Assembly: GCA_001953215.1 (NCBI GenBank)
Contig: CP019169.1
Span: 4,402,001-4,466,000 of the forward strand
Length of the DNA stretch: 64,000 nucleotides
DNA from: Betaproteobacteria bacterium GR16-43
GTDB taxonomy: Bacteria > Pseudomonadota > Gammaproteobacteria > Burkholderiales > Usitatibacteraceae
Direction of reading: 5' to 3'
Part shown: piece by piece, positions 9,729 to 14,538 of the stretch
Position numbering within the stretch: the stretch's first letter is position 1
How the letters are laid out: every line of letters starts with the position of its first letter
Translations under genes and position numbers: made by a program
Notes under the pieces: generated by a model
Databases searched by the model: none
What the model was told of the DNA's origin: nothing
What the model saw: the letters and a program-made list of their open reading frames with translations, nothing else

Positions 9729-10580
9729 TCAGTCCGGCAGCGCGTTGAGCAGGTACATCGTGAGCAGCGGGATCGTGGGCTTGCCGAACGGGGCGAGCCA
9801 GTCGCCGTAGATCGCCTCGATCGCGCCGGTGCGATAGAGCTGCGCGATCACGCGGTCGACGGCGAGGCGGAACTCCGCATCGCCCTTGCGCAGCACGAGC
9901 CCGTAGGGCTCGAACGAGAGATCCTCCGTGGAGACGCCAAGGCCTTCCGCGCCGCCCGCGACCAGGAACGTGCCCACGAGGACCGTGCGGTCTCCCGCCA
10001 GCGCATCCACCTTGCCCGACTTCAGCAGGTCGAAGCCCTCCGCGACCGTCTTCGTGCGCACGATCTCCGCATTGATGAAGCGCTTCTTCAACGCGGCGTC
10101 GAGCGCGCGGATCGTCGTCGTATTCTCGGCCGCGGCGACCTTCTTGCCCTGCAGCTGGGCGAGGCTCGTCGCCGAGGAACTGCGCGTCATGATCGTGGAG
10201 GAATCGGCGAAGACCGGCAGGCTGAAGTCCACCTTCTCGCGGCGCGCAAGCGTGATCGTCGTGGTGCCGCACTCGACGTCGACCTGGCCCGAGGCCACGG
10301 CTTCGATGCGCGTGACCGGCGTGAGCGCGACCCATTCGGTCTTGAGGTCGGCGACGCCGGTCAGCGAGCCGATGCCCGCGGCCACGCGCTTGCAGATCTC
10401 GACCGAATAGCCCACCGGACTGCCGTCGCGCCCCTTGAAGGCGAACGGAGCCGAAGTCTCCGAGTAGCCCAGGCGGATCGAGCCCCGCTTCTTGATCTCG
10501 GCCAGCGTCTGGGCGCCGGCGACGGTGGACAGCAACAAGGTCGCGGCGAGCGACGCCGCGGTCACGAACGATCGATGCAT
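9729..10580 (-). CDS. Amino-acid-type ABC transporter substrate-binding protein (orphan)
   Basis: A 283-residue periplasmic family 3 binding protein. It has a signal peptide cut after AGA, the N-terminal LAEIKKRGSIRLGYSE motif, and the GYSVEICKRVA and QVDVECGTTTIT segments of polar amino acid binders such as GltI. ATG at 10580 has a good GGAGG five to eight bases upstream. No permease or ATPase gene is adjacent, so it either works with a distant transporter or serves a periplasmic enzyme. It is the last gene after the PQQ dehydrogenase/cytochrome/TonB receptor set, and family 3 binding proteins accompany some quinoprotein dehydrogenases, so a link to that system is possible but unproven. Confidence 0.82.
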   Translation of the reverse strand: MHRSFVTAASLAATLLLSTVAGAQTLAEIKKRGSIRLGYSETSAPFAFKGRDGSPVGYSVEICKRVAAGIGSLTGVADLKTEWVALTPVTRIEAVASGQVDVECGTTTITLARREKVDFSLPVFADSSTIMTRSSSATSLAQLQGKKVAAAENTTTIRALDAALKKRFINAEIVRTKTVAEGFDLLKSGKVDALAGDRTVLVGTFLVAGGAEGLGVSTEDLSFEPYGLVLRKGDAEFRLAVDRVIAQLYRTGAIEAIYGDWLAPFGKPTIPLLTMYLLNALPD

Positions 10581-10627: not shown

Positions 10628-12676
10628 CTAGAAGCGATAACGGGCCGTGAGTGCGGCGAGCCACCCTCGCGGCGGCGCCGGCTCGAAGAAACGGCGGTTG
10701 CCCTCGTTCACGATCACCGAACCGGAGTAGCGCTTGTCCGTCGCGTTGTCCACGCGAAAGAGCGCCTGCAATTCCCACGCACCCACGCGCTGCAGGAACC
10801 CTGCGCGCAAGTTCACCAGGCTCGCGGACGGCGCGAAGTCGTCGTTCGCATCGTTCACGTAGAGCCGCCCCGTGTACACCGCCTCGACGGCCGCGCTGAA
10901 ACCACCCCACGCATTCGGCGGTGCGTACGCGAGCTCCGCGTACGCGCTGCGCTCGGGCGTGCCCGGGAGGCGCTTGCCGTTGTCGAACCGCGCTTGCAAC
11001 GACGAAGCCGAAGCGAGATACGTGAGGCCCGCGGCGATCGGACCCCACGCGGAAGCTTCGGCGCCGCGCCGGGTGGTGCTGCCCGCATTGCGAAAGGTCG
11101 AGCGCCCGCCGATGTTCGTGTCGACGACGATCTCGTCGCGCGTGCGGATATCGAACGCGGCTGCGTCGATCGACTGGCCGGCCGCGCGCCATTTCGCCCC
11201 GACCTCCGCGTGATTGCTGCGCGAAGCCTTCAGGTCCGTGTTGAGGCCCGACGCATTGTTGCGGTAGGCCAGCTCGGTGAACGTGGGCGTCTCGAAACCG
11301 CGGCCCGCATTCGCGTACACGTTGAGTTGCGGCGTGGCATGCCACGCGAGGCCGACGGCCGGATTGGTGGCGCTGTAGCTCAAGTCCCCGCTGTCGTCCG
11401 GGTTGCCGGGAGCGATGTAGTGGTCATGGGTGGTGAAGGCCACGCGACTCGTGCGTGCCCCGGCGATCACGCTCCAGCGCCCACCCAGCTCGAGGCTCGC
11501 CTGGAGGAAGGCATCGGTACTGGACACCACGTTGTCTTCGTCGCGACGCAACGCGCCACGCTCGCCCGCCATGTTGAGGTAGCCCTGCCGGTCCTCGTTC
11601 ATGCGGTCGTACTCGAGCCCGCCGGTGAAGCGCGCCGTCATGCCCGGGGCCAGGTCCATGCGGCGCGAGAGTTGCAACGCTCCGCCGTAGTACTGGCGCT
11701 CGAACTCCACGATCCCGCCGGCGGACGTCGGCGGCAGCTGGTTGGCGAGCGGCGTGGAGAGCTTGTTGCCGAGCGAGCGTTCGCCCAGGTAGGCGCGCGC
11801 GGTGAGATCCGTCCACGCATCGAGCCGGCGCTCGAGCACCGACCCCACCTGCTGCTGGCGCACGCTCTTGCTCGCGTCCTGCGTGGTCGCGATGGCCGGC
11901 GACTGCCGCGGGTTCTGCTCCCACTGGTCGCGCGTGAGCCCGAGGGGATCGAGCGAGTGCGGCTGGTCGATCGCGTTCACCGTCGTGTCGATGCGCGTAC
12001 CGGCATCCCATTGCCAGCGCCACTTCGCATTCAACTGGTCGCGCTGGGCCTGGCTGTGGTCTCGGTAACCGTCGGTCTCGAAGTGCGAGAGGTCGACCGT
12101 GTACGCATGGGGCCCGTTCGTCGCGGCAAACTGCGCGCCGTACCGGTGCGCGTCGTAGGGTGCCGCAGTGGCCGTCACGCCCGCGGTCGGCTGCGCCGCG
12201 CCCACCGCCGTGAAGACCTGCACGACGCCTCCCGCGCTGTTGCCGTAGAGCTGGGCCAGCGGACCGCGCAGCACTTCGATGCGCTCGGCGGAGGGCAGGC
12301 TCACCGTGGAAGCCTGGCCCTGCCCGTCGGGCATCGTGGCGGGAATGCCGTCGACGATGAGCCGCACGCCACGAATCCCGAACGTGGAACGCGACCCGAA
12401 GCCGCGAATCGAAAGCTGCAGGTCCTGCGCATAGTTCTGGCGGTTCAGCACCGTGAGGCCGGGCACGCGATTGAGCGCCTCGGAGAGATTCACCTGCGGG
12501 CCGGCGGAGCGAAGCGCGTCCCCGCCGACCACGGAGATCGACGCCGGCGCATCGAAGGCGCGTTCCTCCAGGCGGCTCGCGGTGACGACGATCGGCTCGG
12601 CCGCCGGCACCGCCGCCTCCTGCGCCGCGAGCGGCAGCGCGGCGAAGGCCGCGGAAAGCGCAATGCAACGCTTCAA
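10628..12676 (-). CDS. pqqU: TonB-dependent receptor, PqqU/YncD type
   Basis: A 682-residue outer-membrane receptor with a signal peptide (TTG start at 12676, cleavage after LAA), a plug domain and a 22-strand barrel ending in aromatic F. The plug segment, with NRQNYAQDLQLSIRGFGS, GIRGVRLIVDGIPATMPDG and EVLRGPLAQLYGN, is nearly the same as I recall for E. coli YncD, reported to be the PQQ importer PqqU. The barrel also shares DHYIAPGNPDDSGD and GRGFETPTFTELAYR. The gene is coupled by a TTGA overlap to a cytochrome c gene and, through it, to a PQQ-dependent sugar dehydrogenase, so the ligand is most likely PQQ. No TonB, ExbB or ExbD gene is in the window. The non-ATG start is chosen because it yields a clean signal peptide. 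Confidence 0.88.
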   Translation of the reverse strand: MKRCIALSAAFAALPLAAQEAAVPAAEPIVVTASRLEERAFDAPASISVVGGDALRSAGPQVNLSEALNRVPGLTVLNRQNYAQDLQLSIRGFGSRSTFGIRGVRLIVDGIPATMPDGQGQASTVSLPSAERIEVLRGPLAQLYGNSAGGVVQVFTAVGAAQPTAGVTATAAPYDAHRYGAQFAATNGPHAYTVDLSHFETDGYRDHSQAQRDQLNAKWRWQWDAGTRIDTTVNAIDQPHSLDPLGLTRDQWEQNPRQSPAIATTQDASKSVRQQQVGSVLERRLDAWTDLTARAYLGERSLGNKLSTPLANQLPPTSAGGIVEFERQYYGGALQLSRRMDLAPGMTARFTGGLEYDRMNEDRQGYLNMAGERGALRRDEDNVVSSTDAFLQASLELGGRWSVIAGARTSRVAFTTHDHYIAPGNPDDSGDLSYSATNPAVGLAWHATPQLNVYANAGRGFETPTFTELAYRNNASGLNTDLKASRSNHAEVGAKWRAAGQSIDAAAFDIRTRDEIVVDTNIGGRSTFRNAGSTTRRGAEASAWGPIAAGLTYLASASSLQARFDNGKRLPGTPERSAYAELAYAPPNAWGGFSAAVEAVYTGRLYVNDANDDFAPSASLVNLRAGFLQRVGAWELQALFRVDNATDKRYSGSVIVNEGNRRFFEPAPPRGWLAALTARYRF

Positions 12677-13035
12677 GGCTTCTTCTTCAGTTCGATGGCG
12701 ATGGCCGAATAATACGCGGCCAGCTCGGCGATCTCCGCGTCGGTGAGCGGCTTCGCGATCACGCCCATCACCTCGTGGGATCGCTTTCCGCTGCGGTAGG
12801 CGCGCAACTGGTCGCGCAGGTAGAACTCGGGCTGCCCCGCGAGATGGGGAGCGTCGGGCTGCTCGCTCAGGCCGTTCACGCCGTGGCACGGCGCGCACAT
12901 CCTCGCCTTCTCGCTCGCCTTCCCGGGAGCGCTCGCCCCGGCCTGCTGGGCCCGCGCGGGTAGCGCGGCACCCAGGACCAGGAACGCGAAGAGGCCCGCG
13001 CGAAGCGGGCCCCTGCTCCACGACAACCGCTTCAC
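12673..13035 (-). CDS. Class I c-type cytochrome
   Basis: A 120-residue exported monohaem cytochrome c with the haem-binding CAPCHG motif near residue 47 and a distal Met candidate in SHEVMGVIAKPLTDAEI. The family resembles cytochrome c553/c4 half-domains. GTG at 13035 overlaps the stop of the upstream sugar dehydrogenase gene (GTGA), and its own stop overlaps the receptor start (TTGA). In this setting it is the likely electron acceptor for the PQQ enzyme, passing electrons to the respiratory chain. The tail KKKP is basic. Confidence 0.9.
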   Translation of the reverse strand: MKRLSWSRGPLRAGLFAFLVLGAALPARAQQAGASAPGKASEKARMCAPCHGVNGLSEQPDAPHLAGQPEFYLRDQLRAYRSGKRSHEVMGVIAKPLTDAEIAELAAYYSAIAIELKKKP

Positions 13036-14315
13036 TTGGCGGGCGCCTCCCCGACATAGCTGATGCGATAGATCGCACCGGCGAAGTCGTCGGAGACGAG
13101 CATCGACCCGTCCTTCATCATCGCCACGTCCACCGGACGGCCGCGATACAGGCCGGTCTCGGCGTCGAGCCAGCCGTCGGCGAACACCTCGGTCTTGTCG
13201 GCCGTGCCGTCGGCCTTGAGGCTCGTGAACATCACGCGCGCGCCGATCGGCGTGGTGCGATTCCACGATCCATGCTGCGCGGAGAAGAGTCCGCCCTGGT
13301 ACTTCGCCGGGAATTTCTTGCCCGTGTAGAACGCGAGCCCGAGATCCGCGGCGTGCGCATCCATGTAGACCTGCGGGTTCGTCACGTTGTTCGGCAGCGG
13401 ATCCTTGTCGTAGCCGAACTCCGTGATGCGCGTCTTGCCCTGGATCCACGGGTAGCCGAAGAACTGCCCGGCCTGCGTGGCGCGGTTGATCTCGCCGGCC
13501 GGGATGTCGTCACCCATGCCGTCGGTCTGGTTGTCCGTGAACCAGAGCGTGTTGTCCTTCGGGTTGAACTCGAGGCCCACGGAGTTGCGGATGCCGCGTG
13601 CGTACACCTCGCGCTTGCTGCCGTCGAAGGCGTTCATGCGCACGATGCCGCCGATCCCGACCTCGTCGTAGAGCTTGAGCTTGTCCCGCGGCTGCACGTT
13701 GTACGGCTGGCCGAGCGTGATGTAGAGCATGCCGTCCTTGCCGATGCGGCAGGTGCGGGCACCGTGGTTGAACGACTCTTCTTCCACGGGGATCAGCTTG
13801 CCCTGCGGCACCACCTCGATCACCGCGACGTCCGGGCCTTCGTAGAAGAACTCGGCCGCGGGGAAATTCAGCACGCGGTTGTGGTCGACCACGACGAGGA
13901 AACCGTCCCGCGTCCAGCACACGCCGTTCGGAACGCTGAACTTGAGCGAGGGCGCGAACGCCTTCACTTCGTCGGCCACGCCGTCGCTGTTGCGGTCCGT
14001 CACGGCCCAGACCGTGGTCTTGCGGGTGCCCACGAACAACATGTTCGTCGACGGGGCCACCGCCATGTGGCGCGCGTCGGGGACGATGGCATAGAGATCG
14101 ATCCGGAATCCCGGCGGCAGCTTCACCCGCTTCAGGTTCTCGCGGATCGCCGTGGCGTTGGGACCGGTTTGCGGGACGGGCGGAATGTTCAGGTCCGTCC
14201 CCGAGACTTTCATCTGCTTCAACTTCTCGATGTTCGGCGCCTGGGCGGACGCGGGGATCGGGAATCCGATCGCGAGCGAGCCGACCAGTGCGCAGAGCGC
14301 AGCTTGGCGGTTCAT
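13032..14315 (-). CDS. PQQ-dependent soluble sugar (sorbosone/aldose) dehydrogenase
   Basis: A 427-residue periplasmic six-bladed beta-propeller of the soluble glucose/sorbosone dehydrogenase family. It has a signal peptide cut after ASA and the family motifs LPPGFRIDLYA, FNHGARTCRIG, ARGIRNSVGLEFNP, WFTDNQTDGMGDD and PAEINRATQ-like segments, with AQHGSWNRTTPIG near residue 340 carrying conserved PQQ-site positions. It should oxidise aldoses or aldehydes with PQQ and hand electrons to the cytochrome encoded next. The ATG at 14315 has GAGGAGAG upstream. It heads a minus-strand operon with the cytochrome and the PqqU-like receptor. No PQQ synthesis genes are in the window, so the enzyme may rely on imported cofactor. 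Confidence 0.85.
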   Translation of the reverse strand: MNRQAALCALVGSLAIGFPIPASAQAPNIEKLKQMKVSGTDLNIPPVPQTGPNATAIRENLKRVKLPPGFRIDLYAIVPDARHMAVAPSTNMLFVGTRKTTVWAVTDRNSDGVADEVKAFAPSLKFSVPNGVCWTRDGFLVVVDHNRVLNFPAAEFFYEGPDVAVIEVVPQGKLIPVEEESFNHGARTCRIGKDGMLYITLGQPYNVQPRDKLKLYDEVGIGGIVRMNAFDGSKREVYARGIRNSVGLEFNPKDNTLWFTDNQTDGMGDDIPAGEINRATQAGQFFGYPWIQGKTRITEFGYDKDPLPNNVTNPQVYMDAHAADLGLAFYTGKKFPAKYQGGLFSAQHGSWNRTTPIGARVMFTSLKADGTADKTEVFADGWLDAETGLYRGRPVDVAMMKDGSMLVSDDFAGAIYRISYVGEAPAK

Positions 14316-14538
14316 GGCGTTCTCTCCTCAGGATGACCCTATGGTTGGGCCTGCGTCCGATGCTACGCCTGCCCCTCCTCCCGTCAAACCTGCGGCACCA
14401 CCTCCGAGGTACGCGCGCTGGTTACTTTCCGGGAGCCTTCCTTACACCTGTATTACGCCATGTGATACGGCGCACAGGAGATTCCTCTTCGCATCAGTAG
14501 CATGCCGTCCAACGATAAGAAAAGGCTGGGAGGCCAAC

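Follow-up and report, generated by a model that had tools for sequence, protein, structure and literature searches.

In Escherichia coli, the client of the pyrroloquinoline quinone (PQQ) receptor PqqU (also termed YncD; 6V81/9C4O) is Gcd, an eight-bladed enzyme, and pqqU is not known to be co-transcribed with the gene for that client. The six-bladed PQQ enzymes closest to the case described here are the soluble glucose dehydrogenase of Acinetobacter (sGDH; 1QBI/1CQ1), Asd/YliI of E. coli (2G8S), and the fungal AA12 enzymes (CcPDH, 6JT5/6JWF; TrAA12, 6H7T), among which CcPDH is paired with a cytochrome as a fused b-type domain. Scavenging of PQQ by non-producers through PqqU is already known from the survey of Munder et al. 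2025 (PMC12124388), and Betaproteobacteria bacterium GR16-43, the organism considered here, fits that class. In the main text of the survey, the pqq operon is the only synteny partner given for PqqU, in four Burkholderiales genomes, and a GSDH-family neighbour is not mentioned (PMC12124388). We analyzed a 64,000-nucleotide window (bases 4402001-4466000 of the single-contig, 4.81 Mb genome, which is listed as 100% complete) in which the genes for a predicted PQQ dehydrogenase (P0001), a cytochrome (P0002) and a PqqU-type receptor (P0003) overlap in one operon:

14315-13032, minus strand: dehydrogenase gene P0001, ATG start, 427 aa
13035-12673, minus strand: cytochrome gene P0002, GTG start inside the GTGA overlap, 120 aa
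12676-10628, minus strand: receptor gene P0003, TTG start inside the TTGA overlap, 682 aa
13032-13035, minus strand: GTGA, the overlap of the P0001 stop and the P0002 start, from the sequence
12673-12676, minus strand: TTGA, the overlap of the P0002 stop and the P0003 start, from the sequence

The arrangement of three genes joined by GTGA and TTGA overlaps (10628-14315, minus strand), which had been described in the initial annotation of the window, was thus borne out by the sequence. We regard the operon, with a probability of roughly 80%, as a PQQ salvage-and-use system in a non-producer that depends on nearby producers. In the mechanism proposed, P0003 would bind free PQQ outside the cell and import it, powered by TonB, into the periplasm, where it would fill the secreted apo-dehydrogenase P0001. 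The holoenzyme would then oxidize a sugar or another aldose/alcohol and pass electrons to the cytochrome P0002 and on to the respiratory chain, in an organism that would lack PQQ production of its own and rely on neighbouring producers. PQQ scavenging for periplasmic oxidation, as the initial annotation had proposed, is supported by the receptor signature, by the absence of a pqqC match and of a pqqE match above the cut-off, and by the fold and contact residues of the dehydrogenase (all detailed below); we infer the transport step, like PQQ dependence, electron transfer and the substrate class, from the protein families. As far as found in the open literature, the genetic pairing of PqqU with six-bladed dehydrogenases and the candidate client in ammonia oxidizers are the new elements.

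The receptor, the dehydrogenase and the cytochrome

P0003 generated hits on the Plug and TonB barrel domains in Pfam. Its best NCBIfam model was PqqU (609.5 bits, E 7e-183), followed by a siderophore receptor model at 149 bits, and its best relative in PDB was E. coli PqqU/YncD (522 bits, E 1e-155), followed by another receptor at 56 bits. By these scores P0003 groups with PqqU and not with siderophore receptors, the tree built here having no siderophore outgroup; the siderophore-receptor placement that the initial annotation had named as a refutation did not appear. P0003 and E. coli PqqU are 45% identical over 648 aligned residues; the plug, which had been called nearly identical to that of E. 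coli, is 61% identical overall, and the description holds for the stretch NRQNYAQDLQLSIRGFGSRST only. Munder et al. 2025 (PMC12124388) defined PqqU by Y/F/W99, R304 and R365. Alignment with the PQQ-contact residues, suggested in the initial annotation as a check, revealed this signature in P0003 as F99 (Y99 in E. coli), R300 (equivalent to R304) and R363 (R365). The further contacts K270 (K274), R525 (R536), Q84, Q121 and Y471 (Y481) were also kept, so that all charged PQQ contacts of PqqU are conserved in P0003. The signature was present in 162 of 165 aligned PqqU relatives, and nine other TonB receptors encoded at the same loci all lacked it. P0003 is therefore predicted from its sequence to be a PqqU-type TonB receptor, serving as an outer-membrane importer of PQQ.

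The PqqU-like receptors at three other loci (L056, L057 and L068) kept R365, carried K or T at position 304 and were changed at positions 121 and 274; these may bind another ligand.

P0001 belongs to the GSDH superfamily by its Pfam score (PF07995, 52.4 bits; gathering cut-off 25) and also scored above the cut-off for DUF7133, with a weak match to SMP-30; a signal peptide was recognized by eye. The AlphaFold2 model of P0001, built with 25 homologues, had a predicted local distance difference test (pLDDT) score of 85 and a predicted template modelling (pTM) score of 0.86. Its 16 top structural matches (Z 28-37) were without exception entries for PQQ sugar dehydrogenases of the GSDH/AA12 type. 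The AA12 pyranose dehydrogenases gave the best fold match (Z 37.2 for CcPDH, and 36.6), at about 18% sequence identity, and sGDH and the aldose sugar dehydrogenases (Asd) followed at Z 28-31, whereas lactonases ranked below the PQQ sugar dehydrogenases, Z dropping to 25.9. The predicted PQQ residues of P0001, namely R82, H184, R243, N244, H321, H348, W351, N352 and R393, were all invariant in the 25 homologues. The PQQ contacts reported for CcPDH are His539, His560, Trp563, Asn564, Arg430, Asn431, the catalytic His363, Arg273 and Arg621 (Takeda et al., PMC6881789). In a profile alignment, H321, H348, W351 and N352 of P0001 aligned exactly with His539, His560, Trp563 and Asn564, corresponding to the AA12 H-G-S-W-N motif, and the offset of 239 for the CcPDH chain was set by these four aligned residues. 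R243-N244 aligned with the Arg-Asn pair of the bacterial relatives, a feature common to P0001, sGDH and Asd/YliI together with the six-bladed fold, and R82 and R393 correspond to Arg273 and Arg621 by position only. H184 is likely the catalytic base, its alignment being ambiguous by one residue. The contact loop of P0001 follows the AA12 HGSWN pattern and probably takes the place of the Lys377 loop described for sGDH (PMC6881789).

As the Pfam TrAA12 model gave no match to P0001 at E 0.01, and weak matches in six of the 25 homologues, P0001 was labelled AA12-like rather than AA12. P0001 is thus best described as an AA12-like, six-bladed GSDH-superfamily enzyme that probably differs from the canonical soluble glucose dehydrogenase of Acinetobacter; the latter identity was dropped because Pfam, NCBIfam and PDB gave remote matches only, and AA12-like fits better. 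The soluble PQQ sugar dehydrogenase of the initial annotation is corrected accordingly. Matches to LRP4, LRP6 and LRP2 in the profile search with P0001 were discounted as YWTD-propeller repeats. PVC-type haem-binding CxxCH proteins, whose N-terminal domain P0001 also matched below the cut-off, may be fused versions of a dehydrogenase-cytochrome pair like P0001-P0002.

P0002 scored 34 bits on Cytochrom_C (PF00034; cut-off 21.3) in Pfam and contains a single CAPCH motif, which agrees with its earlier description as a monohaem cytochrome, and a signal peptide was again recognized by eye. It is a monohaem c-type cytochrome and the predicted electron acceptor of P0001, a separate partner in contrast to the fused b-type domain of CcPDH. 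A P0002-like cytochrome adjoined the P0001 orthologue at 25 of the 27 loci scanned.

PQQ supply and recurrence of the gene linkage

The initial annotation had noted no PQQ synthesis genes nearby and proposed a genome-wide search for pqqA-E. A first search for pqqC found no match in the control genomes either, and the search was hence repeated over a sample of 399 Burkholderiales genomes, where 75 scored above the cut-off, validating the search. No pqqC match was found in the closed GR16-43 genome or in any of the 14 sampled members of its family, itself included; pqqE gave none above the cut-off in the genome, only weak radical-SAM matches as in every control genome, and pqqA, pqqB and pqqD lay outside the search. 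The claim of missing synthesis genes thus held for pqqC and pqqE. The sole strong match to the eight-bladed PQQ_2 model in the genome was BamB, encoded beside Der, and the other PF13360 matches were rejected as quinoproteins, being weak repeats in proteins whose open frames span 779-1486 aa. The GSDH-family proteins are therefore the genome's candidate PQQ users.

Among the 399 genomes, orthologues of P0001 (scores above 440 bits) occurred in 27, in 28 copies. PqqU adjoined the orthologue in ten of these genomes, lying downstream and on its strand in nine and divergently in one, with the trio found in Methylibium sp. NZG and Piscinibacter defluvii, among others. Because the trio or pair was found again in many other genomes, its occurrence in GR16-43 is not a matter of chance. 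pqqC was absent from eight of the ten genomes with adjacent PqqU and present in 14 of the 17 others, and PqqU or pqqC was found in 25 of the 27 genomes with the orthologue, against 159 of the 399 overall (Fisher p 0.0034 for adjacency against pqqC and 4.5e-9 for the PQQ source, both uncorrected for relatedness). The PqqUs adjacent to P0001-type enzymes were spread over several PqqU clades in a FastTree phylogeny, with eight changes of label that are each required by supported branches; repeated recruitment or loss of this kind fits a functional link. PqqU also adjoined other GSDH-family paralogues and canonical GSDH genes, and 77 of the 80 Burkholderiales genomes with PqqU and without pqqC carried a GSDH-family gene.

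At locus L193 (genome G580), PqqU has a P0001-type pair on one side and, on the other, a further GSDH paralogue accompanied by a cytochrome of its own. In 20 of the 399 genomes (e.g. G707, G522, G436 and G728), many of them from few genera, pqqC was located no more than 15 kb from PqqU, compared with the four genomes mentioned in the 2025 survey.

Several results weigh against PQQ salvage and use by this operon. The P0001 family is only distantly related to PQQ enzymes of known structure (16-21% identity), and the alignment of H184 as catalytic His is ambiguous by one residue. P0003 falls under the equivalog cut-off of NCBIfam NF041535 (609.5 against 1200 bits), though this is its best model, and departs from E. 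coli PqqU at three minor contacts (Q308N, Q310L and N477T). When relatedness was allowed for, the exchange of pqqC for PqqU was represented by three independent pairs on the enzyme tree, all in the expected direction and too few to reach significance. Two genomes carried a P0001 orthologue without a PqqU or pqqC match: G726, which is 80% complete, and G655, of 1.5 Mb, which is listed at 99%.

A sizeable though less probable alternative is that P0003 supplies every PQQ-using protein of the cell with imported cofactor, its place beside P0001 being a regulatory convenience and other GSDH proteins being clients as well. The genome contains seven GSDH-family matches, P0001 and six more, and since these six could use imported PQQ too, the self-contained system of the initial annotation was overstated. 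The paralogues at loci L182, L185 and L186 belong to the same broad type, and Nitrosospira-type genomes possess both PqqU and GSDH genes at non-adjacent positions, which also favours general supply. Against general supply, the overlaps that link the three genes at the level of translation and the recurrence of PqqU beside P0001 orthologues in different families argue for matched expression.

It seems improbable that P0001 is a propeller that binds no PQQ, with a lactonase-like or structural role, and that P0003 takes up some other ligand, for instance a siderophore or a sugar acid. PQQ-free six-bladed propellers are many, and the DUF7133 and weak SMP-30 matches of P0001 and the equivalog shortfall of P0003 would be in keeping with such a function; the invariance of the AA12 PQQ contacts in the 25 homologues, the intact PqqU signature and the wide gap between the PqqU and siderophore model scores argue against it. 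The occurrence of the enzyme family also tracks a PQQ source, as it was found in 68 of the 159 genomes with PqqU or pqqC against 22 of the 240 without. That the three genes stand together by chance or shared descent, with no functional link, is close to negligible: gene order is shared by descent, so that genome counts overstate independence, yet at least 28 of the 80 pqqC-less PqqU genomes (at least 35%) had a GSDH-family gene no farther than 6 kb from PqqU, against about 2% expected by our own arithmetic from seven GSDH genes in 4.8 Mb, and the adjacency involved at least five enzyme subfamilies in varied orientations (divergent, convergent, or on one strand with either gene first) besides the many changes needed on the PqqU tree.

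Six-bladed dehydrogenases in ammonia oxidizers

Among the PqqU carriers reported by Munder et al. 2025 (PMC12124388) are Nitrosomonadaceae (n = 40), in which they found no PQQ enzyme and for which they suggested an unknown one. Their Pfam searches used PF01011, PF13360 and PF13570, plus a hidden Markov model from Diamond et al., and PF07995 was not among them (PMC12124388). We sampled 100 genomes of the family of genome G749. As the locus of a named Nitrosospira multiformis is almost identical to that of G798, and as most tested genomes of the family carry ammonia monooxygenase, with three copies in closed genomes, this family was taken to be Nitrosomonadaceae. GSDH scored above the cut-off in 92 of the 100 genomes and a PqqU-like receptor was found in 73. 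In genus g4, all 51 genomes with PqqU possessed a canonical GSDH, and in 40 of the 51 it was located within about 5 kb downstream of PqqU, always on the same strand. A caveat is that the Nitrosomonas-type GSDH carries Arg-Ser in place of the Arg-Asn of sGDH. Six-bladed partners are likely the missing clients of the ammonia-oxidizer PqqU.

More generally, we lean towards the view that PqqU commonly serves linked six-bladed quinoproteins of the GSDH/DUF7133 type, an uncounted class that would explain PqqU carriers "without a PQQ enzyme", ammonia oxidizers foremost. If this is true, DUF7133-type proteins and their cytochrome-fused relatives would be PQQ enzymes, so that the linkage yields a functional prediction for DUF7133. 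Gene linkage would likewise name candidate PQQ users for non-producers, e.g. six-bladed GSDH-family dehydrogenases for Nitrosomonadaceae, and suggests that PQQ-dependent sugar/aldose oxidation is commoner among non-producers than has been counted.

At the ammonia-oxidizer loci L242-L258, all PqqUs carry glutamate at position 274 (K274 in E. coli) and nearly all adjoin a canonical GSDH. The g4 PqqUs at the loci read keep the signature, likewise with glutamate at position 274, a residue that was linked to metal co-binding by Munder et al. 2025 (PMC12124388).

Flanking and minor features

The following features lie around or within the operon:

14360-14387, minus strand: weak sigma-70-like promoter match, one match against 0.5 expected by chance and by itself no evidence
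9729-10580, minus strand: family-3 solute-binding protein gene (PF00497), starting 47 bp past the P0003 stop
12578-12598, minus strand: probable TonB box EPIVVTA, P0003 residues 27-33, from the translation

Promoter and terminator scans around the operon gave matches no better than chance, and no Rfam element, riboswitches included, was found near it at the gathering score. The solute-binding protein gene is a possible fourth member of the operon. In G585, a genome of the same genus, its homologue is located directly upstream of the dehydrogenase gene and not past the receptor gene, and at the remaining trio loci no such neighbour was found, apart from a weak, more distant match in L122. As this linkage is confined to the genus, the idea that the family-3 binding protein is a conserved, PqqT-like PQQ-binding part was dropped. 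The EPIVVTA motif near the start of P0003 is presumably the TonB box, an assignment that we base on its likeness to known TonB boxes.

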